A stretch of 64,000 nt of DNA from Paludibacteraceae bacterium. GTDB lineage: Bacteria > Bacteroidota > Bacteroidia > Bacteroidales > Paludibacteraceae. The stretch is from the NCBI GenBank assembly GCA_024401435.1, contig JAKSLB010000003.1, positions 124,001-188,000 on the forward strand. Direction: 5' to 3'. This document shows, one piece after another, positions 9,466 to 26,808 of the stretch (within the stretch, counting starts at the first letter, position 1; each line of letters begins with the position of its first letter). Below the pieces are notes generated by a model. It was not told the DNA's origin. It worked only from the letters and a program-made list of their open reading frames with translations, and searched no databases. The position numbers and the translations under genes are program-made.

Positions 9466-9532
9466 ATATATTTTTATAAAATGTTCATTTATAAATTCGC
9501 ATAAATGTTTCCAAAAAAAACAAAAATACTTG

Positions 9533-9540
9533 CAAATATA
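9533..9540 (-). promoter_or_regulatory. -7 promoter element of the giant repeat protein
   Basis: The minus strand reads TATATTTG (consensus TAnnTTTG) 67 nt upstream of the chosen ATG at 9465. This supports that start over the upstream one at 9582, which would lie upstream of the promoter and inside the preceding terminator. Confidence 0.55.
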
Positions 9541-9550
9541 ATAAAAATAA

Positions 9551-9586
9551 TAAAAAAGGGACGTTTTCCTCTCAGAAAACATCCCT
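9551..9586 (-). terminator. Rho-independent terminator of the CoA-transferase gene
   Basis: Inverted repeat GGGACGTTTTC / GAAAACATCCC (one G-U pair, 6-nt loop) followed on the minus strand by a run of six T. It begins about 29 nt after the stop codon at 9615. Confidence 0.85.
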
Positions 9587-11381: not shown

Positions 11382-12671
11382 TTATTTCGTTGATTTCACA
11401 CCGCGAACTGGCATCGAAAGATATCTATATTTTGAGTCGAAAGTTTTACCCAAGAAATAGTATGCTTCGAAACTAGTTTCTTTTGATTCCACAAACTTCA
11501 ACTCATTAATCCAAAATCCGCAAGGGAAAGAAATACTTTTTCCGTTATATTTACTTGTTGCTGTATATACACCTGTAGTATTGTCTAAAGACCAATCACA
11601 CTCATCCAACAACTCTTGAACTTGTTCTCTAGATGGAATAGCCCATCCTTCTCCTAAATAACGATATGCGGCATCAGAACTATAATCACTATATAAATGA
11701 TAATTTTCATCTACGCCATAATTATCCATTGTGACTTTATTTTTAATAACATTCTTTGACTCACACAAGCTATAAGTTTCTCTTGTAAATTCCGTTTTAG
11801 GCTCTGTCTCACCCCATGCATATGGCGCACCATAAGTTGCCTCTGATTCTGCATCCAAATCCATATCTGCCCAATAAATTCCACTTGGAAGACCCAAATC
11901 GACAGCTTTCATCTTTAAGTTTTTACCTGTAAGCAAACTAGCATCTTTCGTTACAGGACGAACATAATGAGAATCGAATTTAAACATACCATAGATTTTT
12001 CCAGGTTTGTTTAATTCAAGGTTAGTCTGATCTAACACCCAAAAATAATTTGCAATTTCATCATTAGAACACTCACTCGTCCAATAAGTACCCACCAACA
12101 ATACGATATATTTTGATTCATCTTCTTTATTTCTTACAATACAAGCAGGATTACCTGTATTTCTATAATTGGTTTTAAACTCCCAATTACAATTTTCCAA
12201 CAATTCTTCAAACATCGCCTCTGTTGGAGTAAACCATTGATCACCCATATTTACTGTTGCTGCATCATCCTCTGGGTCTAATACCTTCTTACCATCTTCT
12301 TTTGTATATTTAGTATAGACAGCCTCTGTTTCTTGTGATATATAAATCTCAGTATGTTCATAGTCGCCCCATGAATCTCTCTCTTTAAGTGCTGTAGTAC
12401 CCCATGCAAATTTAACACCACAATCATTAGTAGAAGGGGCACCCACATTACGATCGGCCCATAATGTTCCACTTGGCAAATCTAAATCAACTACATTCAC
12501 ATTTTCTGAAGCCATAAATCCTGGGACATGGAATGTTACAGAATCTGGAGTTGAATTAAAATTTGAATATACTATCTGTCCTTCTTTACATGCATAAAAC
12601 TGAGCATTCGCGTTTTGAATTGTTGCGCCTAATGATAATACGGCACCCAACATATAAACTATTTTTTTCAT
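11382..12671 (-). CDS. Secreted protein with two FISUMP-like (Fib_succ_major type) domains
   Basis: 429 aa with a signal peptide (MKKIVYMLGAVLSLGATIQNANA). Two domain copies are seen. The first begins near residue 60 with VDLDLPSGTLWADRNVGA, and the second near residue 250 with VDLGLPSGIYWADMDLDA. Each continues with a (F/Y)AWGxT segment and a W..P(T/S)...ELL(D/E).C.W block like the FISUMP family (lipoprotein/secreted domain first named in Fibrobacter succinogenes). The second copy is the better preserved (YAWGETEPKT, GWAIPSREQ, PVRGV). The function of FISUMP domains is not established; an extracellular binding role is inference. It is the second gene of an operon, 24 nt after the T9SS-sorted gene ending at 12696. 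It shares the domain with the gene cluster at 55475-58017. No sorting domain of its own is visible. Confidence 0.75.
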   Translation of the reverse strand: MKKIVYMLGAVLSLGATIQNANAQFYACKEGQIVYSNFNSTPDSVTFHVPGFMASENVNVVDLDLPSGTLWADRNVGAPSTNDCGVKFAWGTTALKERDSWGDYEHTEIYISQETEAVYTKYTKEDGKKVLDPEDDAATVNMGDQWFTPTEAMFEELLENCNWEFKTNYRNTGNPACIVRNKEDESKYIVLLVGTYWTSECSNDEIANYFWVLDQTNLELNKPGKIYGMFKFDSHYVRPVTKDASLLTGKNLKMKAVDLGLPSGIYWADMDLDAESEATYGAPYAWGETEPKTEFTRETYSLCESKNVIKNKVTMDNYGVDENYHLYSDYSSDAAYRYLGEGWAIPSREQVQELLDECDWSLDNTTGVYTATSKYNGKSISFPCGFWINELKFVESKETSFEAYYFLGKTFDSKYRYLSMPVRGVKSTK

Positions 12672-12695
12672 ATTGTAAACCCTTAAAATCCTTTT

Positions 12696-13181
12696 TTATT
12701 TTTTAATAACTTTTACTATACCATTTCCGACTTGAAGATAATAAATACCTTGTGGTTGATTACTAAATTCAATGTCTGTACTTGTCGTAACGAAAACCAA
12801 CTTTCCCTCAGAAGAAAAAACACTAATCTGTTGGCCCTCTTCCACTCCTTCCACATGAAGTGTTTCACTAGTTGGATTTGGATAAGCAATAATCTTTACA
12901 GATGAATTTACATCTTTCACATCTGAAAGATCCACTTCTCCAAAAGCAATTTTACCAATAGACTCAAGTGAGCCTAACTCTTTCTTCTCAAGCGACTTGT
13001 CATTGTATACAAGATACACTTTTGATTCTTTAAACTCTATACTTCCTATCTTTTTCATCGCCTCAACATAATCTGGAGTTCCAGCTGACAAATAATCAAC
13101 TGTCAAGCCTGGCTCTTTTGCAGACCATGCATTCGCAACTATTGATAAGAATAGAGTTACCGCAATAAAAATTTTTTTCAT
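12696..13181 (-). CDS. Short secreted protein with type A T9SS sorting domain
   Basis: 161 aa from the ATG at 13181, chosen because it opens directly into a signal peptide (MKKIFIAVTLFLSIVANAWSA); the frame extends 10 codons further upstream. The middle segment (IEFKESKVYLVYNDKSLEKKELGSL with short hydrophobic repeats) has no known function. Residues about 95-161 are a classical Por-secretion sorting domain: IAYPNPTSETLHVEG, then ISVFSSEGKLV, GIYYLQVGNG and a C-terminal KVIKK. The protein is therefore expected to cross the outer membrane by T9SS. It is first in an operon with the FISUMP-like gene downstream and has a complete promoter at 13295-13325. The same pairing recurs at 58515-55475. 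Confidence 0.85.
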   Translation of the reverse strand: MKKIFIAVTLFLSIVANAWSAKEPGLTVDYLSAGTPDYVEAMKKIGSIEFKESKVYLVYNDKSLEKKELGSLESIGKIAFGEVDLSDVKDVNSSVKIIAYPNPTSETLHVEGVEEGQQISVFSSEGKLVFVTTSTDIEFSNQPQGIYYLQVGNGIVKVIKK

Positions 13182-13294
13182 TTCTATAACTATAAATAAA
13201 CTACTATTCAATATAAATTTTCTTATTTCCCTTTATGAAACTAAAACCAACCTTTGTCATACGTACCCTTTAAAAAGTCATTTCTATTTCGATG

Positions 13295-13325
13295 CAAAAA
13301 TATGAAAAAAAACAAACGAAACAAA
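13295..13325 (-). promoter_or_regulatory. Full Bacteroidota promoter for the 13181-11382 operon
   Basis: On the minus strand TTTG (13322-13325) is followed after exactly 19 nt by TATTTTTG (13295-13302), matching TTTG-N19-TAnnTTTG. The predicted leader is about 105 nt. Confidence 0.75.
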
Positions 13326-13407
13326 AACTATTGACAAAAAAAACACACCACATAGCAGAATATAAAATTCAGTAACATGTACAAAGAACCAGAAATGCTT
13401 GAAATTA

Positions 13408-13444
13408 CTGGACAAAACGCCTCTACACAAGGCTAATTGTCCAG
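13408..13444 (-). terminator. Interrupted hairpin downstream of the C10 protease gene
   Basis: CTGGACAA (13408-13415) pairs perfectly with TTGTCCAG (13437-13444), with an inner GCCT/AGGC pairing. It sits 25 nt past the stop at 13469. There is no clear U-tract, so terminator function is only suggested by position. Confidence 0.4.
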
Positions 13445-13468
13445 CAACCTCTCTTATACTTTTCGTTA

Positions 13469-14725
13469 TTAATTTTCAGAATTCACTTCTGCCTCTTCAA
13501 TGTCCAACATGATTTCTTGATCTTTGGGCCACAATTCATAAGCGACTACTATTCTGGCATAGTTTCTCTCCATGTAAATAATCCTTGTATCGTATTTTTC
13601 GGCTTTTTCCACGTCAAAACACCCTGCAGCATACCAGCCATCACAATCTCCACTCCATCCCCAATTAATATGGAAATAAGGATCACTTTCAGTATCATTG
13701 GTATTGTTTGCAGAACTTGCATCTTGTTCATGATAATATCCGTCGATAATCCATGTATGTCCCGAACCATTTTTAACATTTTCTCCAACGACTACGACAG
13801 GATGTTTATTGTCTAAGTTTTCTATAACCTTTTTTGAAGTTAATGATATCCTGTTTGTAACATAGGTATAACTTTTCAAATAATTTATTGCTGAGGTTAT
13901 TTCTACTCCCGTACCCTCACACCTTATTTCATAAGGGGGAACATCACGCCAAAATGCTCTAAAATAGATTCCAACCCAAGTTTTTCCTAAATCACTCAAA
14001 TCTTCTGCCTTTTTCTTTGCAACCATCTCACCCATGAGTGATGTTCCCGGACAATTGTAGTATGCTATTATTTGCAAAATCGCAGTAGCAGTACACCCTG
14101 TATAATAAGGTTCATGGCAGACAGGGCAAGTATCCAGAAAGGCATTATATGGATACAGTTGATTCCATGTGGTCTTTAAGAGGGGACCAACTTGCTTTTT
14201 ACCAAGTGTGTCGTTAGTGTTTGATGTACTTTTCAAACTGGATTTTATTGTAGAACCATTTTCGTTACACTCATAATATAGATTACTCGCATAAGCTTTT
14301 ATATTTTCCTTCATCAATTGCAAACCAGGATTATCTGTGTTATCCTCAAATTGTCCGTTATCTGCACATGCAATTATCTTATTCTTTATACGAGAGTCTG
14401 CAGCAACAATTGCAAAACCTGCATCGTCCTTAAAATTACAAATGTAGGCTACCGTATTTTTACTTTCGTCATCGCTTGTCATCGGACTAATTGATTTTAT
14501 TTCGCGCTCACGTATATCTGTAGTGTCATATTTAAACAGATCGTTGATTGCATTAAGGGCTATTTTTGTAGCCGTAACTGTCCCTATTGAATAAGATGAT
14601 GTTGGCGTTTTTTGACCTCCGGATTCCTTCTCGGAATCGTCCTCTTTTTCACAACTCGGGAAACATATACTTATTGCTAATAGTATACACGCAAAAGAAA
14701 TTGAATGCGATAAACTTTTATTCAT
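13469..14725 (-). CDS. C10 (streptopain/PrtT-type) cysteine protease lipoprotein with N-terminal inhibitor-like propeptide
   Basis: 418 aa with a lipoprotein signal (…ICFPSC, lipid Cys about 25). The N-terminal third (VAYICNFKDDAGFAIVAAD… IIACADNGQF) resembles the Spi propeptide-inhibitor fold that keeps streptopain-family proteases latent. The catalytic part has GCTATAILQI with the nucleophile Cys211, then GHTWIIDGYYH with His323 as base, and the family's closing HINWGWSGDCDGWY block. Length and order match Bacteroidales C10 peptidases such as the B. fragilis Bfp and Porphyromonas PrtT group. It probably sits on the outer membrane or cell surface, degrading host or dietary protein. It is monocistronic. 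Confidence 0.88.
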   Translation of the reverse strand: MNKSLSHSISFACILLAISICFPSCEKEDDSEKESGGQKTPTSSYSIGTVTATKIALNAINDLFKYDTTDIREREIKSISPMTSDDESKNTVAYICNFKDDAGFAIVAADSRIKNKIIACADNGQFEDNTDNPGLQLMKENIKAYASNLYYECNENGSTIKSSLKSTSNTNDTLGKKQVGPLLKTTWNQLYPYNAFLDTCPVCHEPYYTGCTATAILQIIAYYNCPGTSLMGEMVAKKKAEDLSDLGKTWVGIYFRAFWRDVPPYEIRCEGTGVEITSAINYLKSYTYVTNRISLTSKKVIENLDNKHPVVVVGENVKNGSGHTWIIDGYYHEQDASSANNTNDTESDPYFHINWGWSGDCDGWYAAGCFDVEKAEKYDTRIIYMERNYARIVVAYELWPKDQEIMLDIEEAEVNSEN

Positions 14726-14758
14726 ACCTTACGAATTAACATTGATATTTTACTGGTA

Positions 14759-14766
14759 CAAAATTA
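14759..14766 (-). promoter_or_regulatory. -7 promoter element of the C10 protease gene
   Basis: The minus strand reads TAATTTTG, about 35 nt upstream of the ATG at 14725; the -33 region is A/T-rich without an exact TTTG. Confidence 0.45.
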
Positions 14767-14897
14767 TCAAAAATATTTAAATAAAACATTTTTTTTGGAG
14801 GGATAAAAAATGGTATGGTAGCATCCACAACATAAACGCACTCTCGATTCGCTTGTTTTTTTATCTATTATTTTTTTTTATCTTTGTCCTATTCTTA

Positions 14898-15101
14898 TAA
14901 AGGGATTTCTACAAATTGCTTTGTAGTGATTTTGAAGATTTATCAGACAGATTGCTGATTTGAAAGAAGAAGCAGTACGGACACTACGACTGAATGGAAA
15001 TGAGCAAGATGACGACAAAAATTCAAAAGCACACAATAGATGAAGGAATAATCCTTATTTGAAAATTAAAAAAAATCGGAGAATTTATAGAAGTTCCCTT
15101 A
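14898..15101. mobile_element. MITE-like element, full copy
   Basis: About 204 bp. The left end AAAGGGATTTCTACAAATT and right end AATTTATAGAAGTTCCCTT are imperfect terminal inverted repeats. The interior (ATTGCTTTGTAGTGATTTTG ... CAGACAGATTGCTGATTTG ... ACTACGACTGAATG ... TTCAAAAGCACACAA) is shared with 59455-59666. No reading frame of useful length is present, so it would be non-autonomous. It ends 31 nt before the start of the GPH transporter and fills most of the 407-nt intergenic gap. Confidence 0.75.
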
Positions 15102-15132
15102 ATCAAAAAACAATTAAACGATAAAGAGTAAA

Positions 15133-16749
15133 ATGGCTGAGAAATTATCTCTTAAAGAGAAAATCGCGTACGCATTAGGCGACGCATCTGCAAACATTGC
15201 ATGGCGTGGTGTTTCCGCATTCTTAATAATATTCTATACTGACGTGTTTGGTTTGGCTCCGGGTATTGTTGCCACACTTATGTTGGTGGCAAGAACCAGT
15301 GATGGTGTTTCTGATGTTTTGATGGGTATCGTCGGAGATCGCACCAAATCAAAATACGGAAAGTTTCGTCCATGGATATTATGGACAGCTCTACCTCTGG
15401 GTATCATTCTATCTTTATTATATGTTTGTCCAGAAAGTTGGACTATGTCATGGAAAATAGTTTATGCCTACACAACCTACATTCTATTTACCTTAATATA
15501 TACAGCCAACAACATTCCTTACGGAGCCTTAATGGCTGTTATGACAAGCGATGACAAAGAGCGTACCAATATCGGTTCTTTTCGTATGGTAGGTGCTTTC
15601 GCTGGTGGAATGCTTGTACAAGGTTCTCTATTATTCCTTGTTGCGCACTTTGGTAATGTCAACCCCACAATCGACATACAACAAACAGACGTCGAGAAAT
15701 ATCAAATCACCGTTTCTGCACCCGATGATGTTCAGAACGCACGCATAGAAACCGAAAACGGAATCGCAGAATTCTTATTGATTGGAAATGAGAAAGACAG
15801 TTTCACTGTTGGAAAAAGTTTCTCTATGCAAGCTGGTGTTCCTTATACTTTTGAGGTGAAAGGGGAAGAATCTCTTAACGAAAAAAGTTTCTCCATCATC
15901 AATCAACGTCAGGGTTACAGCAAAGCCATCAGTTCCCTTTCCATCATTTTGGTGTTGTGTTTATTTATCACATTCTATTTCACGAAAGAACGTGTAACAC
16001 CGCCTGCCTCACAAAAAGAGAACATCGGGAACGATCTAAAAGACCTGATAAAGAATCGACCTTGGTTAATTTTGTTAATTGTAGGATTAATATTCAACAT
16101 CTACAACAACATGAAACAAGGAATCACCGTCATCTATTTCACTCATTACGTTCACAATCAATTACTGGCTGGAGGATACATGACGGTTTTGATGATCGCG
16201 TCCATTATTGGAGCAGCCATCACCACCCCATTAAGCAAAAGATATGGCAAAAAGAATCTCTTCATCGGAGCATTAATAATTACAGGTGCCATCAACTCTC
16301 TTTTGCTTTTCTGTGGTCCTCAAGACAAATTTAACATTTTCATTATCGGAGCATTATCAGAATGTGCTGCAGCCATTATGCCTACCCTGTTTTTCGCTAT
16401 GTTAGGTGATGCTGCCGACTATTCTGAATACGTTAATGGTCGTCGCGCAACTGGTTTGGTTTACTCTGCTGGTTCTTTCGCCACTAAGTTTGGTGGTGGT
16501 ATAGCAGGTGCTATTATCGGATGGGTATTGAATACATACGGATACAACGGACAAGACTCTCTTGCTATCGAAGGTGCAATTCCTGGCATCATCAATTTGA
16601 TGAGTATTATTCCTGCCATTATCGCACTTGTCGGTGCTTGTTTGATGTTCTTATATCCATTGAGCCAAAAAGAGATGGATAACATCACTTTCACCTTAAA
16701 CAACAGAAGAGCACAAAATGCAGAAGCAAACACATTAGTAAACAATTAA
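15133..16749 (+). CDS. GPH-family (MelB-like) sugar:cation symporter with inserted soluble segment
   Basis: 538 aa, an inner-membrane transporter of the glycoside-pentoside-hexuronide family in the major facilitator superfamily. N-terminal hallmarks: KIAYALGDASANIAWRG, the GDRTKSKYGKFRPWILW loop after TM2-TM3, and a TANNIPYGAL segment. C-terminal helices include ATPLSKRYGKKNLF-like and DAADYSEYVNGRRATGL. Between the two halves, roughly residues 172-265, lies a polar segment without helices (VEKYQITVSAPDDVQNARIE ... PYTFEVKGEES) that standard GPH proteins of about 460-480 aa lack. This accounts for the extra length. The transported sugar is not evident because no glycosidase is adjacent. A strong terminator follows. 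Confidence 0.9.
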   Translation: MAEKLSLKEKIAYALGDASANIAWRGVSAFLIIFYTDVFGLAPGIVATLMLVARTSDGVSDVLMGIVGDRTKSKYGKFRPWILWTALPLGIILSLLYVCPESWTMSWKIVYAYTTYILFTLIYTANNIPYGALMAVMTSDDKERTNIGSFRMVGAFAGGMLVQGSLLFLVAHFGNVNPTIDIQQTDVEKYQITVSAPDDVQNARIETENGIAEFLLIGNEKDSFTVGKSFSMQAGVPYTFEVKGEESLNEKSFSIINQRQGYSKAISSLSIILVLCLFITFYFTKERVTPPASQKENIGNDLKDLIKNRPWLILLIVGLIFNIYNNMKQGITVIYFTHYVHNQLLAGGYMTVLMIASIIGAAITTPLSKRYGKKNLFIGALIITGAINSLLLFCGPQDKFNIFIIGALSECAAAIMPTLFFAMLGDAADYSEYVNGRRATGLVYSAGSFATKFGGGIAGAIIGWVLNTYGYNGQDSLAIEGAIPGIINLMSIIPAIIALVGACLMFLYPLSQKEMDNITFTLNNRRAQNAEANTLVNN

Positions 16750-16807: not shown

Positions 16808-17722
16808 ATGTTTCAACCGATTGTTCCAAGTTTTCTAGGAAAGAAAATCATCCAAGAGATTAATTTTTTACCCGTCATTTCTCGAATTGACTGGCGCTAT
16901 TTTTTCCATGCTTGGAAATTAACGGGAAACTATGAAGGTCTTAACACCTTATGCGACTGTGAAACGTGCAAGATGCAATGGCTATTACGATTCAAGGCAG
17001 AAGAGAGAGAAAAAGCGTCAGAGGCTTATCAACTAATGAAAGATGCCAAGGAAGTGTTACGAAAAGGAATAGGAGAAAAAATCTTTCATCTCTCAGCCAT
17101 TGTCTATTTTTCAAACGCACACAGCAAAGGGGAAGGCATCTCTCTAACAAAAGAAGGAGAAGAAATTCTTTATCTTCCTATGTTACGGCAACAGCATGCA
17201 AGCGAACGAAATGGTTTCTGTTTGTCAATAGCCGACTTCATCTCACCCGAAGAAGATTATATCGGACTATTTGCCGTGACAGTACACGGAGGGGATGAAT
17301 GGGCGGAGAATGTTCAAAAAGAGGGTGACGATTATACCGCACTCCTCATCAAAAGTGTAGCCGACCGATTAGCAGAAGCTACCGCACAATGGTTGCATGA
17401 AAAAATCAGAACTGAATACTGGGGATATGCGACAAAGAATAATGCAGAAGGAATTCGACCAGCCTTTGGTTATCCATCCCTACCCGATCTTTCCCTTTTG
17501 TTTGAAGCCAACAAACTATTAAACCTAAACGAAATAGGGATCACACTTTCTGAAAACGGAGCGATGAAACCCAATGCTTCTATCTGCGGTCTACATCTGT
17601 CTCATCCGCAAGCATCTTATTTTATAGTAGGAAAAATCGGTGAAGATCAAAAAGGAGAATATGCTAAGCAAAGAGGAATGACGAAAGAAGAAATAGAAAG
17701 GTGGCTTGTCAATAATCTGTAG
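16808..17722 (+). CDS. Free-standing MetH activation-domain protein (cobalamin-dependent methionine synthase reactivation)
   Basis: 304 aa matching the C-terminal activation module of MetH: VPSFLGKKIIQE, IDWRYFFHAWKL, the ADFISPEEDYIGLFAVTVHGG core, the DRLAEATAQWLHEKIRTEYWGYA segment, GIRPAFGYPSLPD, IGITLSENGAMKPNAS and HPQASYFIVGKIGEDQ. In MetH this domain binds SAM and supports reductive remethylation of cob(II)alamin. Here it is encoded alone, so the catalytic Hcy/pterin/B12 modules must be elsewhere in the genome or the protein serves another corrinoid enzyme. The ATG at 16808 is 9 nt beyond the U-tract of a strong terminator, with no promoter box between, so expression presumably needs read-through or a promoter hidden in the symporter gene. 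Confidence 0.9.
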   Translation: MFQPIVPSFLGKKIIQEINFLPVISRIDWRYFFHAWKLTGNYEGLNTLCDCETCKMQWLLRFKAEEREKASEAYQLMKDAKEVLRKGIGEKIFHLSAIVYFSNAHSKGEGISLTKEGEEILYLPMLRQQHASERNGFCLSIADFISPEEDYIGLFAVTVHGGDEWAENVQKEGDDYTALLIKSVADRLAEATAQWLHEKIRTEYWGYATKNNAEGIRPAFGYPSLPDLSLLFEANKLLNLNEIGITLSENGAMKPNASICGLHLSHPQASYFIVGKIGEDQKGEYAKQRGMTKEEIERWLVNNL

Positions 17723-17774
17723 TGACACAAGATTGTGCCTCCACAAACAATAAAATCAATAGATGTTTTTGTTT

Positions 17775-18779
17775 TTATTCTTCCTCAAAAAAATAGGGTG
17801 ATTTTTCATATTCAATATATTTACTATCTTCCCCGTATTCAATATAACAAGGCAAATTATTATCATTGTACCATTTTGTAAGCAAATCGTTCATCAAAAC
17901 ATCATAGTGTCGATTGATAGAAAGTGCACAAGACACATAATCTTTGACAGGAATATCAATGCCGACAAACACTACAGAACGTTGCAAAGCACAAGAAAGA
18001 AAAACATTCTGATATTCTTCTAACAACACAAAGATACACTTTTCAAATTGATAATCATCTGCAACAACATTTAACACCGCAGAAGAAATATTTTCTATTA
18101 TTTCCAAATCATCATTAGTTTTTGGGACATAGAAACATTCCATATCTTTGGACGATGCTGCATGAAAACCATCCGAAAATCCTTCATTGATTATCTCAAA
18201 CGAACGATTTAGTTCTGTAAATTGTATTTTCACAGGTGGTGATTTCAGATTTTTTGCTGTTGCAAATTCATATCCTGCACGATAAGAGACAGAATATTCA
18301 TTCAAATTGACGACATGACAACCTTTATATTCCGAATGTTTTTGTTCATCTGTAAACAATAGTACTTCGTATCTTTTTGGCAAAGACAAAAACATATACG
18401 ATACATCATCTATCACTTCCGAATCTGTAATAATAAGAAGATTAGTGTTTCCCTCATCTTCATGAGTGATGCCATCTGCATACCAATTCTGAATATGGTC
18501 AATCATCGTAGGCTTATCATTTGATGTCAAAATTTCACAATTAACATTTTCCTTCCCCTGTTTTTCAAACATCGCAACTCCTTGCAGTATTTTATCATAG
18601 TAGCCTTTGTCTCCAATAGAATTAGGAGGGAAAACAACAGTTATTTTTTTTACAGATGATTGCTCTTCTTCCTCTTTTTCACATCCATTCACTGCAAACA
18701 AAAAACAAAGAAAGATGAAAAGTCTCTCGATTTTCACGAGAGACTTCCAATCTTTCTTTATGGGTTTTATTTTTATCAT
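17775..18779 (-). CDS. Lipoprotein resembling BMP-type periplasmic binding proteins
   Basis: 334 aa from the ATG at 18779; a GTG at 18737 (residue 15) is an alternative that gives a compact signal peptide (VKIERLFIFLCFLFAVNGC). The lipobox VNGC precedes an acidic linker. The body follows the layout of BMP/Med substrate-binding proteins: ITVVFPPNSIGDKGYYDKIL at the first strand, LLIITDS, a SVSYRAGYEFATA segment, a GFSDGFHAA segment and VFVGIDIPV near the end. The match is by pattern only, so the family is tentative and the ligand unknown. It is the last gene of a three-lipoprotein operon led by the C13 protease fusion at 22621, 93 nt after the preceding gene. Confidence 0.6.
   Translation of the reverse strand: MIKIKPIKKDWKSLVKIERLFIFLCFLFAVNGCEKEEEEQSSVKKITVVFPPNSIGDKGYYDKILQGVAMFEKQGKENVNCEILTSNDKPTMIDHIQNWYADGITHEDEGNTNLLIITDSEVIDDVSYMFLSLPKRYEVLLFTDEQKHSEYKGCHVVNLNEYSVSYRAGYEFATAKNLKSPPVKIQFTELNRSFEIINEGFSDGFHAASSKDMECFYVPKTNDDLEIIENISSAVLNVVADDYQFEKCIFVLLEEYQNVFLSCALQRSVVFVGIDIPVKDYVSCALSINRHYDVLMNDLLTKWYNDNNLPCYIEYGEDSKYIEYEKSPYFFEEE
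18720..18746 (-). promoter_or_regulatory. Perfect 10-bp hairpin at the start of the BMP-like gene
   Basis: AAGTCTCTCG (18720-18729) and CGAGAGACTT (18737-18746) with a 7-nt loop lie inside the first 20 codons. On the minus strand the hairpin is followed by the pyrimidine-rich TTCATCTTTCTTTGTTTTTT, and its loop contains the alternative GTG start. It could act as an intragenic attenuator or control start choice; both are inference. Confidence 0.4.
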
Positions 18780-18872
18780 CTAATCATTATTTCGCAAAAT
18801 CCGACTAAAAAAAAAACAGATTTCAGGAAACAAAATTAGTCAAAATAAAGAATATTTTCATAAGAAGTTTTC

Positions 18873-20432
18873 TTAATATGAAAAAATAGGATATGTTTTG
18901 AAATCATACACATCCCATGCTCTGTTGAATAATGATTTACCGAGGATACTTACCTCTGCGCCTACTTCACCAGCAACTGCAAATGACAATTTCGCATAGT
19001 CTCCAGATATTGCTTCATAACTAGAAATCCACTCACCTTCATCATTAATTTGTTTGCCTTGTCCAACTTCTGCAGCCAAATCAAAACGTCCTCCAATACC
19101 TAACGTAGGACCTGCTAAATTGTAAAACAAAATTCTAGTACGCAAATAGACACCTGCTGATGCATTTCCATGGAAAGCAAGACGTGATTTATTAACAAAA
19201 TCGGAAAAACTACTTGATTTATTATAATCAGAATCATCTTTTGAACTTGACAAGTCTTTTATTCCTTTATCCTTCTCCCAACGCAATCCTGCCGTACTAG
19301 TGCTGTGACTCTTATAAAGTAAAGGATAATCTAAAATACCATAAGCCTCAACATTATATTTAAAGAATATATCTGGTGCAACTTCAATTGCAACAGGGAC
19401 AACACCAATCCAGAACACGAACGTATGACTAGGGAAATGAGTCAATTGTTTTTCTCCCGAGAATCCTGCGCCAATTCCGAATCCAATATTAGAAACTTCA
19501 AAATCTCCCTCTTTTTTAACAGAAGCCTCGAAGTATACAGGACGCATCCAACTTGTTCGAACGTCCACATGAACAGACAACTTCGAGCTCATTCTGATGG
19601 AATCGATCTTAGCATATGCTTTAAATGAAGTTCCGAAACCTTCAACGCCACCTGCTTTTTTCAACTTCTCCATTCCGCCGAACAAATCAAGCCAACCGCC
19701 ATGAACACCCTCTACACTTTTTCCTAATCCAGGGAATGGGATAACTCCAATACGAAATGTTTTATCAAAATTTATGACAGTTGCATCGTATGTATAGTTA
19801 GAAGTTACGAACTCTCTAACATCAATAAAGCCACTCTCTTCAAATATTTTTTCCGACATAGACACACTTCTATCAATACATTCAACGTCATTGTCATTCG
19901 TCAAATTCGTATTTTTGGTTTCGATAATAACTATTGGGTGATAAGTGCTATCAACTTCATCATAAAAACCTTTTTCATTAATCTCACCATTTTGAGTTGA
20001 CATCAATGTTGGTTTGCAAAACACATCTGTCGAGAATTTATACTCGCCATCAGGCAAAGCTTCGAATGCAGTTGCCTTATCCACATTCAACAACAATCTA
20101 TCCTCCGACTTTGAAGTTTCCTTCACACGAAGATAATAAGGCACATCTGTTTTCTTATTCCAAACTACTACAACATTACCTTTTTTAGGCGTTCCATTAT
20201 TCAATTTCTCTATCAAAGTTGTACTAACAGAAATCTGTGATGTATCACTCTTTGTCACGAAAACATCTGTTGGAGTTAAATACTTGTCATAACAAAATAC
20301 ATGTACTTTCACAGAATCTGCATGAGAAACTTGTTGTTCTTTAGCAGAATTTGGATTTTCATCATCATCATTTTCGCATCCAACAAATGCTGCGATTGCA
20401 AAAAATGCCATCAAATAATAAATCTTCTTCAT
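18873..20432 (-). CDS. Lipoprotein of unknown function, second gene of the C13-protease operon
   Basis: 519 aa. The signal peptide ends with the lipobox AAFVGC (lipid Cys about 19), followed by an acidic linker ENDDDENPNSAKEQQ typical of surface-exposed Bacteroidota lipoproteins. The rest is beta-rich without a family I recognise. An N-terminal part (to about residue 190) contains short strand-like segments. A central and C-terminal part is glycine-rich (FGIGAGFSGEKQ, AGPTLGIGGRFDLAAEVGQG, AVAGEVGAEVSILG), suggestive of a beta-barrel or beta-helix-like fold. It starts 23 nt after the protease gene ends, so the two are surely co-transcribed. A role as partner or substrate of the protease is inference. 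Confidence 0.7.
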   Translation of the reverse strand: MKKIYYLMAFFAIAAFVGCENDDDENPNSAKEQQVSHADSVKVHVFCYDKYLTPTDVFVTKSDTSQISVSTTLIEKLNNGTPKKGNVVVVWNKKTDVPYYLRVKETSKSEDRLLLNVDKATAFEALPDGEYKFSTDVFCKPTLMSTQNGEINEKGFYDEVDSTYHPIVIIETKNTNLTNDNDVECIDRSVSMSEKIFEESGFIDVREFVTSNYTYDATVINFDKTFRIGVIPFPGLGKSVEGVHGGWLDLFGGMEKLKKAGGVEGFGTSFKAYAKIDSIRMSSKLSVHVDVRTSWMRPVYFEASVKKEGDFEVSNIGFGIGAGFSGEKQLTHFPSHTFVFWIGVVPVAIEVAPDIFFKYNVEAYGILDYPLLYKSHSTSTAGLRWEKDKGIKDLSSSKDDSDYNKSSSFSDFVNKSRLAFHGNASAGVYLRTRILFYNLAGPTLGIGGRFDLAAEVGQGKQINDEGEWISSYEAISGDYAKLSFAVAGEVGAEVSILGKSLFNRAWDVYDFKTYPIFSY

Positions 20433-20455
20433 ACTTTAAAAATTATAATGTTTAT

Positions 20456-22621
20456 TTAAAAAAATTCTTTCATACTACAATCATATAAATTGCCAAATGA
20501 TTTTGATCCATACAAAGAGACATGAGAACCTGACGTTCCCAACACCAGTCCATAATACAAATCTCGTAGAGAAACATTTGGATGTTCACCAACCATTTGA
20601 ATAAATGTATTACTAAATCCATTGGAAACATACAAATCTAAGTTTTCATCCAAATTGGTCATATCCACATACGATCTTTCTACCGAATTGGCTGCTGTAA
20701 TAAACAATGTCCTTTTGTGTGAACTACAATACTGAGCAACACTTCCCGCATAACATGTTTCGACCACAAACAACAATTTACGATATTTATTGCCATTTTC
20801 CATGCGTGTCAACCAATCATTTACCTCACTAGCATAGATGTTTCGTTGCCCGAATTTCAGCACATCAGTCTCTCCATGACCACACCAAAAAACAAACACA
20901 TCATCATCGCCATCAGAGTGTAACACTTTCGACAAAGATTCTCTGGCATTTCCACAAAGAATATCTCCAATATCAGAAGTTTTCAACTGACTCAACTGGT
21001 AATCAATATACGCATTATTATATAAATTAAATCCCCCCACAGAATTATGGACATTTCCTTTAACTGGATTTTGTATATTGTAAGCCAGATTGTTTTCCTC
21101 CACCAATATGATATGATCATCGTCATATCCGCAATATTTAAGAGTCCAATACATAGCTAACACGTCTGCTTGATGACGATAATCCTGCCATGTGTCCGAA
21201 CCTGCCACCAACAAAGCCCAACGATCATGCAAGACAGGCAACTCGTTTCCTTGAGTATCTGAATCATCTTCAATATTTTGCATTTGAAAATTCCAAGAAG
21301 AGATACTTGATTGAGTACCAAACACACCCTTCGTAGAAAAATCCTCTAAACTGGAAAAAACACCATCTTTAGAATGCCAAAAAACAAAACTAGTATTCTC
21401 TCGAATTGATCCATATTTCGAATCAAAAACAAAGGGACCCGTTGCACCAACCACACTGGGCATTTCCCCTTTCTTCAACTGATCTAATGCATATTTCAAA
21501 TTAGATGATGTATAATTTAATTTTGCCTCTCTCGTGCTCTCTCGTGCTATACTTTTCATTGCATCAATCTGAGTCATAGGCACTGTCGAATAGTGTTTTG
21601 CACACAAGCCTAACCATGTCAGCATCAAGGCATCATAAACCTGTGGTTCTCCATAAACAGGAAATTCATTAAATTTTGTTTCATAAAGAATACGAAATCC
21701 ATAAGCAGGATCCGCCCCAATTGCCACGCCATACGAGCCTATTACACCATATCCCATACGATCAGGTAATGCAGAATCAGAGAATACTTGAACAAAAATC
21801 TTTCCAGACTCATCATTTGACAACAAAGAATCTATTGTTGCACATAGCGTAGGATTACTGCAAGCAACAATAATGATTTCACCATTTTCAGCCTTACTGA
21901 TTAAACTTGATTGCAGGATCTTTTTCAATTCCACTTCTGAAATATTTTCGGATATGTTCAATGTGGTCGAAATATTCATAGCTCTTTCCGTTGCAACAAA
22001 AGGTAACCAGGTAGAGAAACTTTTCCCGTAAGAATCTGTGGTACATATCAAATGTAACTTTGAACCATTATCAGTATTCAATGAAGAGAATGATTTTGTC
22101 ACAGAAAGCAAGGCTTCTGATTGTGTTAAATTCGACTCCGACAAGCACCACAACCAATCACTCCCCACATATTCACGTTGTAAATCTATGCTTGTTGCAA
22201 CAGGTAAGATTAAAGGAATAGGATTTTTTTGATACTGCTTTTTAAAATTATCAAAAATGAAAGCCACATTTTCTGCTTTGGCAGAACTTTCTGGACCAAT
22301 CATTGCCACATAATTACTGTCACAAAGGACATTCGTAATAAAAGTATTTAAAGAGAGTTCCGATGCATTTTCATCAAAAAAGACAAACTGAAAATCATAG
22401 GACAAATCATTGTCGCGTTGTGCTTCTCTAATGTTGGCCGCAGTCCATTGTAATGTTCGTTTCCATCGGTCAGTATTTTCCAAAGAAACAATCACTGCCA
22501 CCTTTTGTTTTTTTATGTTTTGTGTTTGTTCACAAGAGATGCATCCTTCATCTTCACATGATATGAAAGAAAAACAAATGACAACAAATGCCATGATATG
22601 AAACCAAAACACCTTAAACAT
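20456..22621 (-). CDS. Lipoprotein fusing a type I periplasmic-binding domain to a legumain/GPI8-like C13 cysteine protease
   Basis: 721 aa. Lipobox FISC at about residue 22. Residues about 40-400 look like a type I periplasmic-binding (ANF-receptor/LivJ-like) domain: VAVIVSLENTDRWKRTLQW, YVAMIGPESSAKAENVAF, PLILPVATS, the ligand-cleft-type LICTTDSYGKSF and a YDALMLTWLG segment. From about residue 460 it changes to a peptidase C13 domain: WALLVAGSDTWQDYRHQADV is the legumain/GPI8 N-terminal signature. His582 lies in FWCGHGETDVLKFG and Cys623 in VVETCYAGS; the 41-residue spacing equals that in mammalian legumain as I remember it. The LKF after the His recalls GPI8. Cleavage after Asn/Asp or a transamidase activity would be expected from the family. 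First gene of an operon with two more lipoproteins. Probable ligand-sensing envelope protease; the role is unknown. Confidence 0.85.
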   Translation of the reverse strand: MFKVFWFHIMAFVVICFSFISCEDEGCISCEQTQNIKKQKVAVIVSLENTDRWKRTLQWTAANIREAQRDNDLSYDFQFVFFDENASELSLNTFITNVLCDSNYVAMIGPESSAKAENVAFIFDNFKKQYQKNPIPLILPVATSIDLQREYVGSDWLWCLSESNLTQSEALLSVTKSFSSLNTDNGSKLHLICTTDSYGKSFSTWLPFVATERAMNISTTLNISENISEVELKKILQSSLISKAENGEIIIVACSNPTLCATIDSLLSNDESGKIFVQVFSDSALPDRMGYGVIGSYGVAIGADPAYGFRILYETKFNEFPVYGEPQVYDALMLTWLGLCAKHYSTVPMTQIDAMKSIARESTREAKLNYTSSNLKYALDQLKKGEMPSVVGATGPFVFDSKYGSIRENTSFVFWHSKDGVFSSLEDFSTKGVFGTQSSISSWNFQMQNIEDDSDTQGNELPVLHDRWALLVAGSDTWQDYRHQADVLAMYWTLKYCGYDDDHIILVEENNLAYNIQNPVKGNVHNSVGGFNLYNNAYIDYQLSQLKTSDIGDILCGNARESLSKVLHSDGDDDVFVFWCGHGETDVLKFGQRNIYASEVNDWLTRMENGNKYRKLLFVVETCYAGSVAQYCSSHKRTLFITAANSVERSYVDMTNLDENLDLYVSNGFSNTFIQMVGEHPNVSLRDLYYGLVLGTSGSHVSLYGSKSFGNLYDCSMKEFF

Positions 22622-22764
22622 AAATCAATATACCCACGAGAATTTCGCAGTCTCAATAATAAATTGATAAAAAAATCAGTTTTAATAAGTCAATACTACA
22701 CTTTTCCCGTTCTTATCAGGAAATGTTCAGTTCGTTGCAATCTAACAATTTGATACAAAATGGA

Positions 22765-23559
22765 CTATTGATAATATTCTATTTGGCAACTATATCTTTC
22801 GATACGATCCAAATACTCACGCACACGTTGTGTCATGTTTCCTTCTTCATCAAATGCCACTTTATCAAATCCTCTATTTTTACCTAATACATAAAAATTA
22901 CTCATCTCCAATTCTCTCTCATTATCCATCTTTACATTCTTTTGACGAGAGATTAATTTGTTTTTTGCATCGTACTCATTCAATTCAACGAGTCCCGATT
23001 TGCCATATTTATAAACAAACTTTTTTTTCAAAACTCCATTATTATCATAGTAGGATGTCTCTTGACTTTTTTGTGTCCCATTTTCATTGAAAACAGAGAC
23101 AGAACGTTCTTGGACATTTCCCTTCCCATACCATTCAAAGACTGTACTCTCCATATAAATCAGATTTCCATTCTCTGAATATTGGCATACAATCTTCTTT
23201 TTCAAAACATTTTCTTCTGCGTATTTGCAAGTTTCCAACAAATTTCCCCTTTCATCATATTTAAAAGAAGAAAAAGAACTTTGAGTGGTATCTTCTGAAC
23301 TGAAAATTTTCACAATATTTCCCTCTTCATCAAAACTCATCCTGCAAATAAAAAAATGTTCCGATTCAGTCAATGAATCACGGTATTCCGTATCATTAAA
23401 CAAAGTGTACAATTTCACTTTTCCATTCAATCCTAACGATTGAATAGTGGGTATACTGATATTCTCCTTCACCTGTTGTGCATCAGATTTGTCATCATTT
23501 TTTGCACTAACAAAGACAAACGAGAAAAACAATATAATCAATAAAGTAAAACGTTTCAT
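22765..23559 (-). CDS. Secreted protein with YD/RHS-like short repeats
   Basis: 264 aa with a signal peptide (MKRFTLLIILFFSFVFVSA) and no lipobox. After residue 70 the chain is built of about eight 20-aa units of the form YDExGNLxE...Y..., for example FDEEGNIVKIF, YDERGNLLETCKY, YSENGNLIYMES, YDNNGVLKKKF and YDAKNKLISRQ. They resemble RHS/YD or YwqK-type repeats found in many Bacteroidota periplasmic proteins of unknown role. It is transcribed toward the C13 operon, with 143 nt between; whether it is co-transcribed with that operon is unclear. Confidence 0.7.
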   Translation of the reverse strand: MKRFTLLIILFFSFVFVSAKNDDKSDAQQVKENISIPTIQSLGLNGKVKLYTLFNDTEYRDSLTESEHFFICRMSFDEEGNIVKIFSSEDTTQSSFSSFKYDERGNLLETCKYAEENVLKKKIVCQYSENGNLIYMESTVFEWYGKGNVQERSVSVFNENGTQKSQETSYYDNNGVLKKKFVYKYGKSGLVELNEYDAKNKLISRQKNVKMDNERELEMSNFYVLGKNRGFDKVAFDEEGNMTQRVREYLDRIERYSCQIEYYQ

Positions 23560-23691
23560 TCTTTTTCTAAACTGGATTCTATTATCTAAATTTTAGTTCA
23601 AAACAACCAATGTCTGACATTCACTCACCATTCTATTCATATTCATAATCACCATATTATCATTAAAGAATGGCATCTTCATTTCAAGTGG

Positions 23692-23699
23692 CAAAATTA
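23692..23699 (-). promoter_or_regulatory. -7 promoter element upstream of the YD-repeat gene
   Basis: The minus strand reads TAATTTTG about 130 nt before the ATG at 23559. No exact -33 TTTG. Confidence 0.4.
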
Positions 23700-23804
23700 C
23701 AAAAACTTTTGCGAGTATTTCAATTTTTTTTAACTCTTTTTCCCTCATACATATACACTAAGGGAATGATTGTATTCAAAAATCTTTTGTCTACTCTTTT
23801 TCAC

Positions 23805-25442
23805 TTACGACTTTCGTTCTATTTCATGAAGATTCTCCATTTTTTTCTTTTTCAAGAACTCATAGATTCCATCAAGATGCTCTGTCACACGCTGATGTCC
23901 AAACTCATATACTTTTGTCACCAAGCCATCCAAGAAATCACGATCATGAGACACCACAATCAATGTTCCATCGAAGTCTTTCAAAGCAGTCTTCAGAATA
24001 TCTTTCGTCTTCATATCCAAATGATTAGTTGGCTCATCCAAGATGAGTAAATTGACAGGTTCCAACAATAATTTAATCATTGCCAGACGTGTACGCTCAC
24101 CACCAGACAACACCTTCACCTTCTTGGTAGAGTTTTCGCCTCCGAACATAAATGCACCTAACAAATCCTTAATTTTATTTCGGATTTCTCCTTTTGCCAC
24201 ATCATCAATTGTTTGAAAAACAGTCAATTCTCCATCCAACAGAGAAGCTTGATTTTGAGCGAAATAGCCAATCATCACATTATGTCCCAACGTCAAAGTA
24301 CCATCATGTTTAATCTCATCCATAATACATTTCACCATAGTGGATTTTCCTTCTCCATTTTTACCCACAAAGGCTACTTTCTCACCACGAGAAATGGTAA
24401 ACGAAGCATCTTTAAAGACCAAATGATCGCCATAACTTTTCCCCACTCTATCTGCTATAACCGGGAAGGAGCCAGAACGTGGAGAAGGAGGAAACTTCAA
24501 ATGCAAAGCCGAAGTGTCTTCTTCATCAACCTCTACCAACTCTAATTTTTCCAACATCTTCACACGCGATTGCACTTGCAAAGTTTTAGAGTAGGTACCT
24601 TTGAATCGTTCAATAAAATCCTTGGTTTCTGCAATCATCTTTTGTTGTTCTTCAAAAGCTTTCTGTTGTTGTTCACGACGTTCTTTTCTTAATTCCAAAT
24701 AATGGGAATAGTTCACTTTATAATCGTAGATTCGACCCATTGTCACCTCAATTGTACGAGTTGTGATATTATCCACAAAGGCACGGTCATGTGAAATGAC
24801 GATCACCGCTTTGGCGCTCTCCACCAAGAACTCTTCCAACCACTGAATAGATTCAATATCCAAATGGTTAGTAGGCTCATCAAGTAAGATGACATCTGGT
24901 TTACGCAAAAGGATTTTCGCCAATTCAATACGCATACGCCATCCACCGCTGAACTCTTTCGTCTGTTTTGTAAAATCCTCACGAAGGAAACCCAAACCGA
25001 GCAACGTTTTCTCAACATCAGCTTCGTAGTTTGTCTCTTCAATAGAATAATATTTTTCGCTTAACGTAGAGACCTTTTCAATCAACTCCATATAGCTATC
25101 ACTCTCATAGTCAGTACGTTCAGAAAGTTCTTTATTTAATTCTTCTATCTCTTTTTCCATGGCAAACAATTCGGCAAAGGCAAGCGAAGCCTCTTCAAAG
25201 ACAGTGCGATGATCTTCTGTCATCAAATGCTGTGGAAGATAAGCCACCACGGTTCCTTTCGGAGCTGTGACACTGCCCCGTGTGGGTTGTTGCACTCCTG
25301 CCAAGATTTTCAACAAAGTAGACTTCCCTGCTCCATTCTTTCCCATAAGAGCTATTCTGTCACCATCGTTCACCTGAAACGATATATTCTCAAAAAGTGT
25401 CGAACCTGAAAATTCGACCGTTAATCCATCAACTGAAATCAT
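23805..25442 (-). CDS. ABC-F family ATPase (ribosome-associated type)
   Basis: 545 aa with two ABC cassettes and no membrane segment. Cassette 1: Walker A GKNGAGKST (about 34-42), signature FSGGWRMR, Walker B VILLDEPTNHLD. Cassette 2: GKNGEGKST, LSGGERTR, LLILDEPTNHLD. Between them is the charged linker helix region (LRKERREQQQKAFEEQQKM) typical of ABC-F translation factors such as YbiT/YdiF/Uup. Such proteins act at the ribosomal E site and relieve stalls, and some confer antibiotic resistance. The short linker and lack of an extended arm favour a housekeeping factor over a resistance protein. It is a single gene with its own -7 box at 25501. Confidence 0.92.
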   Translation of the reverse strand: MISVDGLTVEFSGSTLFENISFQVNDGDRIALMGKNGAGKSTLLKILAGVQQPTRGSVTAPKGTVVAYLPQHLMTEDHRTVFEEASLAFAELFAMEKEIEELNKELSERTDYESDSYMELIEKVSTLSEKYYSIEETNYEADVEKTLLGLGFLREDFTKQTKEFSGGWRMRIELAKILLRKPDVILLDEPTNHLDIESIQWLEEFLVESAKAVIVISHDRAFVDNITTRTIEVTMGRIYDYKVNYSHYLELRKERREQQQKAFEEQQKMIAETKDFIERFKGTYSKTLQVQSRVKMLEKLELVEVDEEDTSALHLKFPPSPRSGSFPVIADRVGKSYGDHLVFKDASFTISRGEKVAFVGKNGEGKSTMVKCIMDEIKHDGTLTLGHNVMIGYFAQNQASLLDGELTVFQTIDDVAKGEIRNKIKDLLGAFMFGGENSTKKVKVLSGGERTRLAMIKLLLEPVNLLILDEPTNHLDMKTKDILKTALKDFDGTLIVVSHDRDFLDGLVTKVYEFGHQRVTEHLDGIYEFLKKKKMENLHEIERKS

Positions 25443-25500
25443 AAATTAGGTACTTCTAATAAGGAATTTTTCGCAACCTTTTCATTGTTTTTTTGCGTTG

Positions 25501-25508
25501 CAAAGGTA
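25501..25508 (-). promoter_or_regulatory. -7 promoter element of the ABC-F gene
   Basis: The minus strand reads TACCTTTG (consensus TAnnTTTG), about 60 nt upstream of the ATG at 25442, with a TTGTG about 20 nt further up in place of TTTG. Confidence 0.55.
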
Positions 25509-25650
25509 CTATTTTCCCATCACATGCACAAGTAGTCTTATCAATGCACTAAAAAGCATTATTCTTTCATAGCGAATACCTCCACATCAAAAGTCACAAA
25601 TAGCCATTCTCATTTTTCTTCTTTCACTTCTTTTTCTCAACAAATTTACT

Positions 25651-25658
25651 TAACTTTG
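25651..25658 (+). promoter_or_regulatory. -7 promoter element of the holB operon
   Basis: TAACTTTG matches TAnnTTTG, 28 nt before the holB ATG. This would drive the plus-strand run from holB through trmB and perhaps further. Confidence 0.6.
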
Positions 25659-25686
25659 GAGAAATTTTAAATTCGGAATAAAAGCG

Positions 25687-26808
25687 ATGTTATTCAAAGA
25701 AATATACGGACAAGAGGCCATCAAACAAACATTTACAAAGGCAGTGAGCGACAATCGATTAGCGCACGCTATTTTGTTGTATGGACCTCAAGGCACGGGA
25801 AAATTAGCTTTGGCCATCGCATTAGCACAATACGTGAATTGTCCGAATCGAAAAGATGGAGAAGCATGCGGGACATGTCCCTCATGTATACAATTTCAAA
25901 AGTTAGTGCATCCCGACTTGCACTTTGTTTTCCCGATCACCAGAAGTTCTGATTCCACCACCTGCGATACCTTTCTGCCAGAATGGAGGCAACGCATCTT
26001 CGAATCACCCTATTTCAATTTGGAGCAATGGGAAAGACTCATCAACCAAGATAACAAGCAAAGTACCATCTACACCAACGAGAGCAATGAAATTCTAAAA
26101 AAGCTCAGTGCAAAAGCGTATGAATCGGAATACAAAGTGATGATAATCTGGCTACCTGAAAAAATGCAAGAGGATTGTGCCAACAAGTTGTTAAAAATCA
26201 TTGAAGAACCGCCATCAAAAACGCTTTTTATTTTGGTCAGTGAGGAACCTGAGAAGTTGTTACAAACCATCACGTCACGTACACAACGTTTTTTCATTCC
26301 ACCATTGACAGAAGAAGAGATAGCCAATGCGTTGAATGGAAAATTTACGCTTTCTTCAGAAGAGTTAGCCAACGTATCACACATTGCCAATGGCAATCTA
26401 ATCAAAGCCATCAACATCATTGAATCCTCCACCGAGGAAAATGAATATTTTAATCTATTCATCTCTCTTATGCGTTTATGTTATCAACGCAAAGCGAAAG
26501 AGATGAAAGAGTGGTCGGAAGAGATAGCCAAGATAGGAAGGAAAAGGCAAATCACCTTTTTGGAATATGCTCAACGCATGGTTCGTGAAAACTTCATCTA
26601 CAATTTGCATGAGCAAAAGCTAAATTATCTAACGCAACAGGAGGCTGCGTTTTCAATGCGGTTTGCCCCCTTCATCAACGAAAAAAATATTGCGGGATTC
26701 TTATCTGAACTAGAATCTGCCGCACAACATATCGAGCAGAATGTACAAGCAAAAATCGTTTTTTTCGATCTTTCACTTAAAATCACCATGCTCATCAAAA
26801 TGAAATAA
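25687..26808 (+). CDS. holB: DNA polymerase III delta-prime subunit
   Basis: 373 aa AAA+ clamp-loader subunit. The N-terminus is LFKEIYGQEAIKQTF, a helicase-loader/RuvB-like start. Walker A is GPQGTGKLA (about 33-41) and the Zn-binding cysteines lie in CPNRKDGEACGTCPSC. IEEPPSKTLFILVSE and ITSRTQRFFIPPL carry the sensor 1/SRC-like region. It acts with the tau/gamma and delta subunits to load the beta clamp on primed DNA. It is first gene of a compact plus-strand operon; the next gene starts 26 nt downstream. Confidence 0.92.
   Translation: MLFKEIYGQEAIKQTFTKAVSDNRLAHAILLYGPQGTGKLALAIALAQYVNCPNRKDGEACGTCPSCIQFQKLVHPDLHFVFPITRSSDSTTCDTFLPEWRQRIFESPYFNLEQWERLINQDNKQSTIYTNESNEILKKLSAKAYESEYKVMIIWLPEKMQEDCANKLLKIIEEPPSKTLFILVSEEPEKLLQTITSRTQRFFIPPLTEEEIANALNGKFTLSSEELANVSHIANGNLIKAINIIESSTEENEYFNLFISLMRLCYQRKAKEMKEWSEEIAKIGRKRQITFLEYAQRMVRENFIYNLHEQKLNYLTQQEAAFSMRFAPFINEKNIAGFLSELESAAQHIEQNVQAKIVFFDLSLKITMLIKMK

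Follow-up and report, generated by a model that had tools for sequence, protein, structure and literature searches.

A lipid-anchored PBP–legumain fusion protein and its association with MACPF lipoprotein genes in Bacteroidales

What might a bacterium do with a legumain-type protease that is fused to a ligand-binding domain and anchored to a lipid? The question arises from one gene in a 64,000-nucleotide stretch of DNA (hereafter the window) from a gut-type Paludibacteraceae bacterium of the order Bacteroidales (GenBank assembly GCA_024401435.1, contig JAKSLB010000003.1, positions 124,001 to 188,000 of the forward strand). The product, which we call PBP-C13, combines a type I periplasmic-binding protein (PBP) domain with a C13 peptidase domain. 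Across its relatives, co-location of the gene with genes for MACPF proteins (perforin-like pore-formers) is far above background and concentrated on the tree. Such gene adjacency suggests a sensor-controlled protease that switches on MACPF toxins. The features of the protein are listed here.

20456..22621, minus strand: PBP type I–C13 fusion lipoprotein, 721 amino acids
22556..22558, minus strand: codon of the lipobox Cys22 (lipid anchor), followed by an acidic EDE; Cys in 66/66 alignment rows
21341..22516, minus strand: type I periplasmic-binding/ANF-receptor domain, residues 36–427, from profile and model superposition
21233..21304, minus strand: linker between PBP and C13 domains, residues 440–463, low model confidence
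20459..21232, minus strand: legumain-type C13 domain, residues 464–721, reaching the C-terminus
20876..20878, minus strand: codon of catalytic His582; 66/66 rows
20753..20755, minus strand: codon of catalytic Cys623; 66/66 rows
21176..21178, minus strand: codon of Arg482, aligned with the S1-pocket Arg of legumain; 66/66 rows

The initial annotation, made from the sequence alone, had described a lipobox, a periplasmic-binding N-terminal part and a C13 protease with a His582/Cys623 dyad, and all three were borne out. AlphaFold2 prediction of the whole chain (pLDDT, the per-residue confidence score, 90.5) and a structural search recovered the folds of legumain and LivK. Human legumain superposed on the model at 1.4 Å over 253 residues with 28% identity, its His-Cys dyad aligning with that of PBP-C13, and LivK superposed at 2.7 Å over 329 residues. 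Confidence was lower between the domains (mean pLDDT of 71, 66 and 58 in successive blocks of residues 431–460). The two profiles proposed for checking the annotation gave a divided answer. PF01650 matched with 178.7 bits against a curated cut-off of 22.8; the 721-residue protein itself had no match to PF13458 or PF01094 at E ≤ 1, whereas its relatives do match. The PBP part was assigned to type I by its family profile and fold match, the nearest proteins being branched-chain amino-acid binding proteins. A C-terminal prodomain, LSAM in the legumain subfamily, is absent, the C13 domain aligning through residue 721, which is the C-terminus. We regard as confirmed that the protein is a sensor-like type I binding domain joined to a legumain-type C13 protease and anchored by a lipid. 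The annotation suggested a likeness to GPI8; legumain scores better both by profile and by model superposition. The overall interpretation of the annotation is partly supported, and the GPI8-like transpeptidase is not favored.

Of 101 genomes close to that of the window, one had the protein when its full length was used as query, and 15 congeners were among those lacking it. Over 393 genomes of the order, PF01650 matched in 52, and strong matches (E 1.8e-40 or better) were limited to eight genes in seven genomes, the window's included. In a phylum sample, the family profile matched in 152 of 395 genomes; among the matches listed, a full-length one was seen only in the window genome, the rest being partial. 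Scanning public genome contigs with the single protein gave no matches, and an alignment-based scan gave 407 relatives. The best 80 of these, kept as 79 loci, were analyzed; they were picked by similarity to the query, not randomly. By title nearly all of the 79 loci belong to Bacteroidales; most come from metagenome-assembled genomes, many of which were recovered from gut or rumen samples. Three titles lie outside the order (Fibrobacter twice, Oscillospiraceae once) and are perhaps mis-binned contigs. Together with the window and the loci from the genome sample there were 87 loci, which were merged at 90% identity into 68 groups (the 68 loci below); contigs end early at many of them. The window genome also contains a second, weak C13-like match (E 2.9e-6; L040, G000:C1:211327-211632, minus strand) in a 678-residue frame.

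Conservation was counted in a 66-row alignment of relatives. Cys22, Arg482, His582, Cys623 and Ser650 are invariant. The scan that fetched the rows used two peptide patterns (residues 478–486 and 498–506), so Arg482, which lies inside one of them, was partly preselected; His582 and Cys623 lie outside both. The relatives L033–L039 were left out of the alignment. Two of them, L033 and L039, nearly duplicate L046 and L114, and L034, L035, L037 and L038 retain both catalytic residues. Residue 621 is Glu in 54 rows and Asp in 12; at residue 667, 63 rows have Asn and 3 have Asp. We take residue 667 to align with Asp231 of the legumain S1 pocket, and the pocket Arg aligned with Arg482 to be R44. PBP-C13 resembles human legumain (asparaginyl endopeptidase, AEP; MEROPS C13, PF01650) in fold, dyad and the aligned S1 Arg and acidic residue, but differs from it in the third S1 residue, in lacking the prodomain and in having an N-terminal PBP fusion and a lipid anchor. 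Residue 113 is Ser in 54/66 rows and residue 143 is Thr in 49/66. If, as we assume, these are positions typical of amino-acid binding PBPs, they are mostly but incompletely retained; that ligand class is a candidate. The export signal that follows the Cys of surface lipoproteins is acidic in Bacteroidota, and D or E is common just after the lipid Cys in the 66 rows. The position of that signal is described in the portion of PMC12853789 on which we draw. PBP-C13 is probably exposed at the cell surface.

Which genes accompany it? Neighbors within 9 kb were clustered by single linkage. Clusters may join via signal peptides and short proteins were therefore excluded; MACPF-cluster proteins shorter than 400 residues were not counted as MACPF. 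A gene for a Bmp/PnrA-like lipoprotein is found near the protease gene in 64/68 loci. The copies called upstream number 59, of which 57 are no more than 60 bases away from the protease gene and 50 overlap it by the assigned open reading frame (ORF) starts; the window's gene is the only copy placed well downstream. The profile of this family retrieves PnrA-type lipoproteins, and 29 of 46 aligned cluster members match Pfam Bmp at E ≤ 0.01. Three loci (L105:9944-17065, L042 and L059) carry two PBP-C13 genes, with a Bmp-like gene beside each. In the window, two genes accompany that of the protease.

18873..20432, minus strand: 519-amino-acid lipoprotein, no fold assigned, candidate partner or substrate; 23 bases downstream of the protease gene
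17775..18779, minus strand: Bmp/PnrA-like lipoprotein, 334 amino acids, assigned by cluster membership; Pfam Bmp at E 0.015 only, under the cut-off

MACPF-cluster proteins of at least 400 residues occur in 30/68 loci (24 of the 49 having at least 6 kb upstream), with two or three genes per locus in many. Sixty of these 69 proteins pass PF01823 and 36 pass BACON (E ≤ 0.01). When searched against the PDB, the cluster profile found bacterial MACPF structures, perforin and complement components. Hosts whose locus includes a BACON-MACPF partner extend to cultured commensals, namely Paraprevotella xylaniphila YIT 11841 (L069) and Parabacteroides distasonis An897 (L050).

The association was compared with its background. 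The 393 genomes of the order hold 31 MACPF matches, and seven of these lie in PBP-C13 loci, at three of the eight strong loci (G167, G347 and G382). Genomes with a strong PBP-C13 gene, seven in all, contain no MACPF match beyond these; at the other five strong loci, which include the window, there is none. At an assumed 3.4 Mb per genome, chance would place about 0.004 MACPF matches inside 10 kb of eight genes. In a tree of 67 proteins (L055, whose gene is split in two frames, was left out), a single clade of 36 rows, to which the window belongs as well, contains 29 of the 30 MACPF loci. Four of the seven rows without MACPF in this clade have less than 3 kb of upstream sequence, and the others are L051, L092 and the window. 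The other clade, of 31 rows, has a single MACPF locus, L105; this has two PBP-C13 genes, and its MACPF gene is closer to the other copy. The MACPF label requires 8 changes on the tree compared with 22.2 in shuffles. Support is 100 for the branch of 36 rows and 91 at the window's nearest fork; the window sits on a long branch of its own (1.85), and for rows this long the tree program cautions that placement is unsure.

The largest MACPF proteins offer a place where an Asn-directed protease might cut. All 29 MACPF-cluster proteins of at least 700 residues have a BACON-like domain, and an Asn stands within positions +6 to +16 after it in 29/29, preceded at short distance by an acidic residue in 28. 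The Asn occupies the ninth residue after BACON in 27/29, or 26 counting only the first Asn from +6 on. As a control we used 82 BACON tails of other proteins in the order, after dropping 22 BACON copies (incomplete end, short or duplicate tail) and excluding four loci in PBP-C13 neighborhoods (L140, L146, L148 and L149). These tails had an Asn in the stretch in 45 cases, the acidic context in 15 and the ninth-residue Asn in 2 (26/29 versus 2/82, Fisher p = 8e-20, uncorrected for kinship and choice of position). Because 45/82 controls carry an Asn, the evidence retained was limited to the exact position and to an acidic context (28/29 versus 15/82). Since the gene of a putatively Asn-directed protease adjoins, the linker Asn is a natural candidate for a legumain site, and the ninth-residue Asn is our candidate cut site. 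Outside PBP-C13 loci, 20 of 24 MACPF matches were fetched, the four with the weakest E-values being omitted; in the regions around them 1 of 159 ORFs was BACON-like, and it was unscorable. One MACPF protein outside PBP-C13 loci, L186 (G068:C15), has three BACON copies and no Asn at the ninth linker residue.

Other families recur beside the protease gene. Cluster 3, a lipoprotein family of about 357 residues, is present in 28/68 loci, usually between the MACPF and Bmp genes; no recurrent Pfam match was found for it, and its profile aligned with MACPF only in the signal peptide region. Cluster 8 consists of large lipoproteins with a BACON-like start and a remainder without assignment (L042, L051, L075, L081, L085 and L098). 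Its members (for example L042:4661-7021, minus strand, and L051:5669-7957, plus strand) occupy the place that MACPF has in other loci, and only their N-terminal BACON-like part aligns with MACPF proteins. They have an Asn at the aligned column in 5/6, and an adjacent one in the sixth; a new effector type is possible. Several loci without tracked partners, in one subgroup of the other clade (L061, L070, L071, L079 and L080), have instead a gene for a DUF4421 protein, lying upstream of the Bmp-like one (cluster 9; one member, that of L061, was searched against Pfam). Submitting ten proteins to PADLOC returned only a weak caspase match (E 0.0012) in the C13 protein of one relative.

We propose that PBP-C13 is an outer-surface lipoprotein whose amino-acid-binding-type domain would tune a legumain-type cysteine endopeptidase. 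It would work jointly with the Bmp-like lipoprotein, which provides a second ligand-binding fold, and cut after Asn in partner surface lipoproteins encoded alongside. In most of its clade these partners would be MACPF lipoproteins. In the largest, the cut would fall at the conserved Asn of the BACON–MACPF linker, so that the pore-forming part is freed or activated. In the window genome, the 519-residue lipoprotein beside the protease gene is the candidate partner. For the reading of PBP-C13 as a surface protease, ligand-tuned and Asn-directed, by which partner surface proteins (in its clade usually MACPF toxins) are matured, we judge the chances to be evenly balanced. A bolder form, which we entertain tentatively, likens the system to complement. 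The Bmp-like protein and PBP-C13 would sense a small molecule, cut the BACON-linker Asn and release a set of MACPF proteins that assemble pores; BACON would then act as a tether or prodomain that can be removed, and the two-receptor module could be coupled anew to cluster 8 or to the 519-residue protein.

Several observations weigh against this proposal. The association is absent in the very genome studied, where no PF01823 match was found, and 38/68 loci are without a MACPF-cluster protein of at least 400 residues, some merely from contig ends. Among the 49 loci whose upstream sequence reaches 6 kb or more, 16 carry none of the four tracked partner clusters. The divergent relative L036 lacks the catalytic His and Cys. 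Asn at residue 667 instead of Asp may mean that cleavage specificity differs from that of legumain. As to the linker, Asn anywhere in +6 to +16 was dropped as evidence in view of the controls, an earlier control of 0/8 having been too small. The large proteins are homologous, so their Asn residues are not independent, and the position was picked after inspection. Scores were obtained for 26 of 40 shorter cluster proteins: 21 of them contain an Asn within the stretch and only 3 have it at the ninth residue. Judged from these sequences, the ninth-residue Asn marks the large class alone, and it may be structural instead of a cut site.

Other explanations were weighed against the same data. PBP-C13 could be a nutrient protease: its C13 domain would degrade environmental proteins for uptake, the PBP and Bmp-like proteins would bind amino acids, peptides or nucleosides, and the MACPF genes would be incidental in lipoprotein-rich regions. 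The likeness of the PBP to branched-chain amino-acid binding proteins and the PnrA-type lipoproteins retrieved by the Bmp-like profile are in keeping with this, as are the single MACPF locus among 31 rows of the other clade and the dyad-less copy of L036 (L036:8344-10557, plus strand), which comes after a TonB-dependent receptor gene. We nevertheless think it rather unlikely, because MACPF co-location lies far over background and is clustered on the tree. Distinctly improbable, in our judgment, is self-protection or signal relay, in which the protease would inactivate the producer's own or kin pore-formers at its surface, or cleave a surface regulator upon ligand binding. In L061, L070 and L079, of a subgroup of the other clade, a gene pair that we take to resemble BlaR1/BlaI lies nearby and would suit a relay. 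Self-protection fits poorly with a cut in the linker outside the MACPF domain, where cleavage more often matures a protein than destroys it, and cluster 3 is an equal or better candidate for immunity. In its favor, the CDCL operon of B. fragilis, in the part of its description used here, has an immunity protein that is a surface lipoprotein (PMC11169675).

Two further accounts turn on the C13 domain itself. A transpeptidase or ligase like GPI8 (PIG-K) of the GPI transamidase, attaching proteins to an envelope acceptor, is very improbable: the profile score for GPI8 is below that for legumain, and the neighbors taken as partners are lipoproteins themselves. That the domain is a noncatalytic scaffold, a binding module with a relict dyad, is hardly credible. 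The loss of both catalytic residues in L036 speaks for it, but His and Cys are retained in 66/66 rows although the scan patterns exclude these residues.

The three-gene cassette (17775–22621) seems, judging by gene content, to be the part special to the window genome. Its flanks, an ABC-F gene and a gene for a 304-residue protein, are 6.1 kb apart here and about 20 bases to 3.6 kb apart in the 11 congeners in which both were found on one contig. The site (window 16808-25442; L174 and L175) is variable across the genus, and in both congeners inspected (G002 and G010) the spot between the flanks holds other genes, which we take to resemble a dGTPase-like gene and a gene for a 391-residue protein with a Hint-like stretch. 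The G002 site also encodes a protein that resembles, by eye, the window's 264-residue protein (22765-23559), and because of this look-alike the latter's gene seems native to the spot. G+C is 34–36% over the cassette, 39–40% in windows starting at 15000–16000 and 24000–26000, and 34% again at 12000–15000. Contamination was considered and is unlikely, since the flanking genes on this contig closely resemble genes elsewhere in the genus. A Bacteroidetes promoter pattern matched at 9 places in the window (4.5 expected), and none of these directly precedes the protease gene. About 3 kb from the cassette is a C10 (SpeB-type) cysteine peptidase with a Spi-type inhibitor domain (13469-14725, minus strand; PF01640, PF13734); also nearby are a 2384-residue ORF (2428-9582, minus strand) and a gene whose product bears a type IX secretion sorting tail (12696-13211, minus strand).

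The 519-residue protein has distant relatives (22–25% identity) in three PBP-C13 loci, L034, L084 and L091. It had no match over the cut-off in Pfam and none in NCBIfam, a PDB profile search or PADLOC, and none was found in viral contigs. Its profile aligned with MACPF only in the signal peptide region, and its model, built from 3 sequences, was unusable (pLDDT 36.9). The window genome also has no PF13004 match.

Proteases that act on pore-forming proteins have precedents. Surface C11 proteases of Bacteroidales (fragipain, doripain) activate the CDC-like toxin BcpT (PMC9308784) and the BfCDCL pair (PMC11169675), according to the parts of those reports drawn on here. PBP-C13 would likewise be a surface lipoprotein protease of clan CD; those enzymes, in contrast, are C11 and cut after Arg or Lys, and the portions of their description covered mention no ligand-binding domain. 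Mammalian legumain contributes to the maturation of perforin-2 (MPEG1), a MACPF protein that it cuts in the EGF region, in a lysosomal and mammalian setting (PMC7614779, in part). The Bacteroidales secreted antimicrobial proteins (BSAPs) are MACPF proteins, some with a BACON N-terminus, and the relatives' neighbors are likewise MACPF lipoproteins, many with BACON, whereas MACPF has no match in the window genome. In the portions of PMC12853789 covered, an external trigger such as proteolysis is one open possibility for BSAPs, three candidate C11 sites were altered and tested in BSAP-1, and a BACON-type N-terminal domain of unknown role occurs in 16% of BSAP representatives; the terms "C13" and "legumain" have 0 occurrences, and these portions do not link BACON BSAPs to a C13 protease. 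A MACPF gene cluster of B. thetaiotaomicron has been described (PMC2954219, in part). Our literature search, mainly outside subscription journals, found no description of the PBP-C13/MACPF pairing, and among papers on MACPF and legumain, judged from titles and abstracts, none concerned bacteria making both. New here are the pairing with the Bmp-like gene, the MACPF neighborhood and the ninth-residue linker Asn.

If the proposal is true, perforin-like antibacterial proteins of the gut would gain a gene-linked activating protease with a built-in sensor. It would address the trigger of BSAPs and the role of BACON, both left open in the portions of PMC12853789 covered, and would extend the action of legumain on MACPF proteins, known from mammalian perforin-2, to bacteria.
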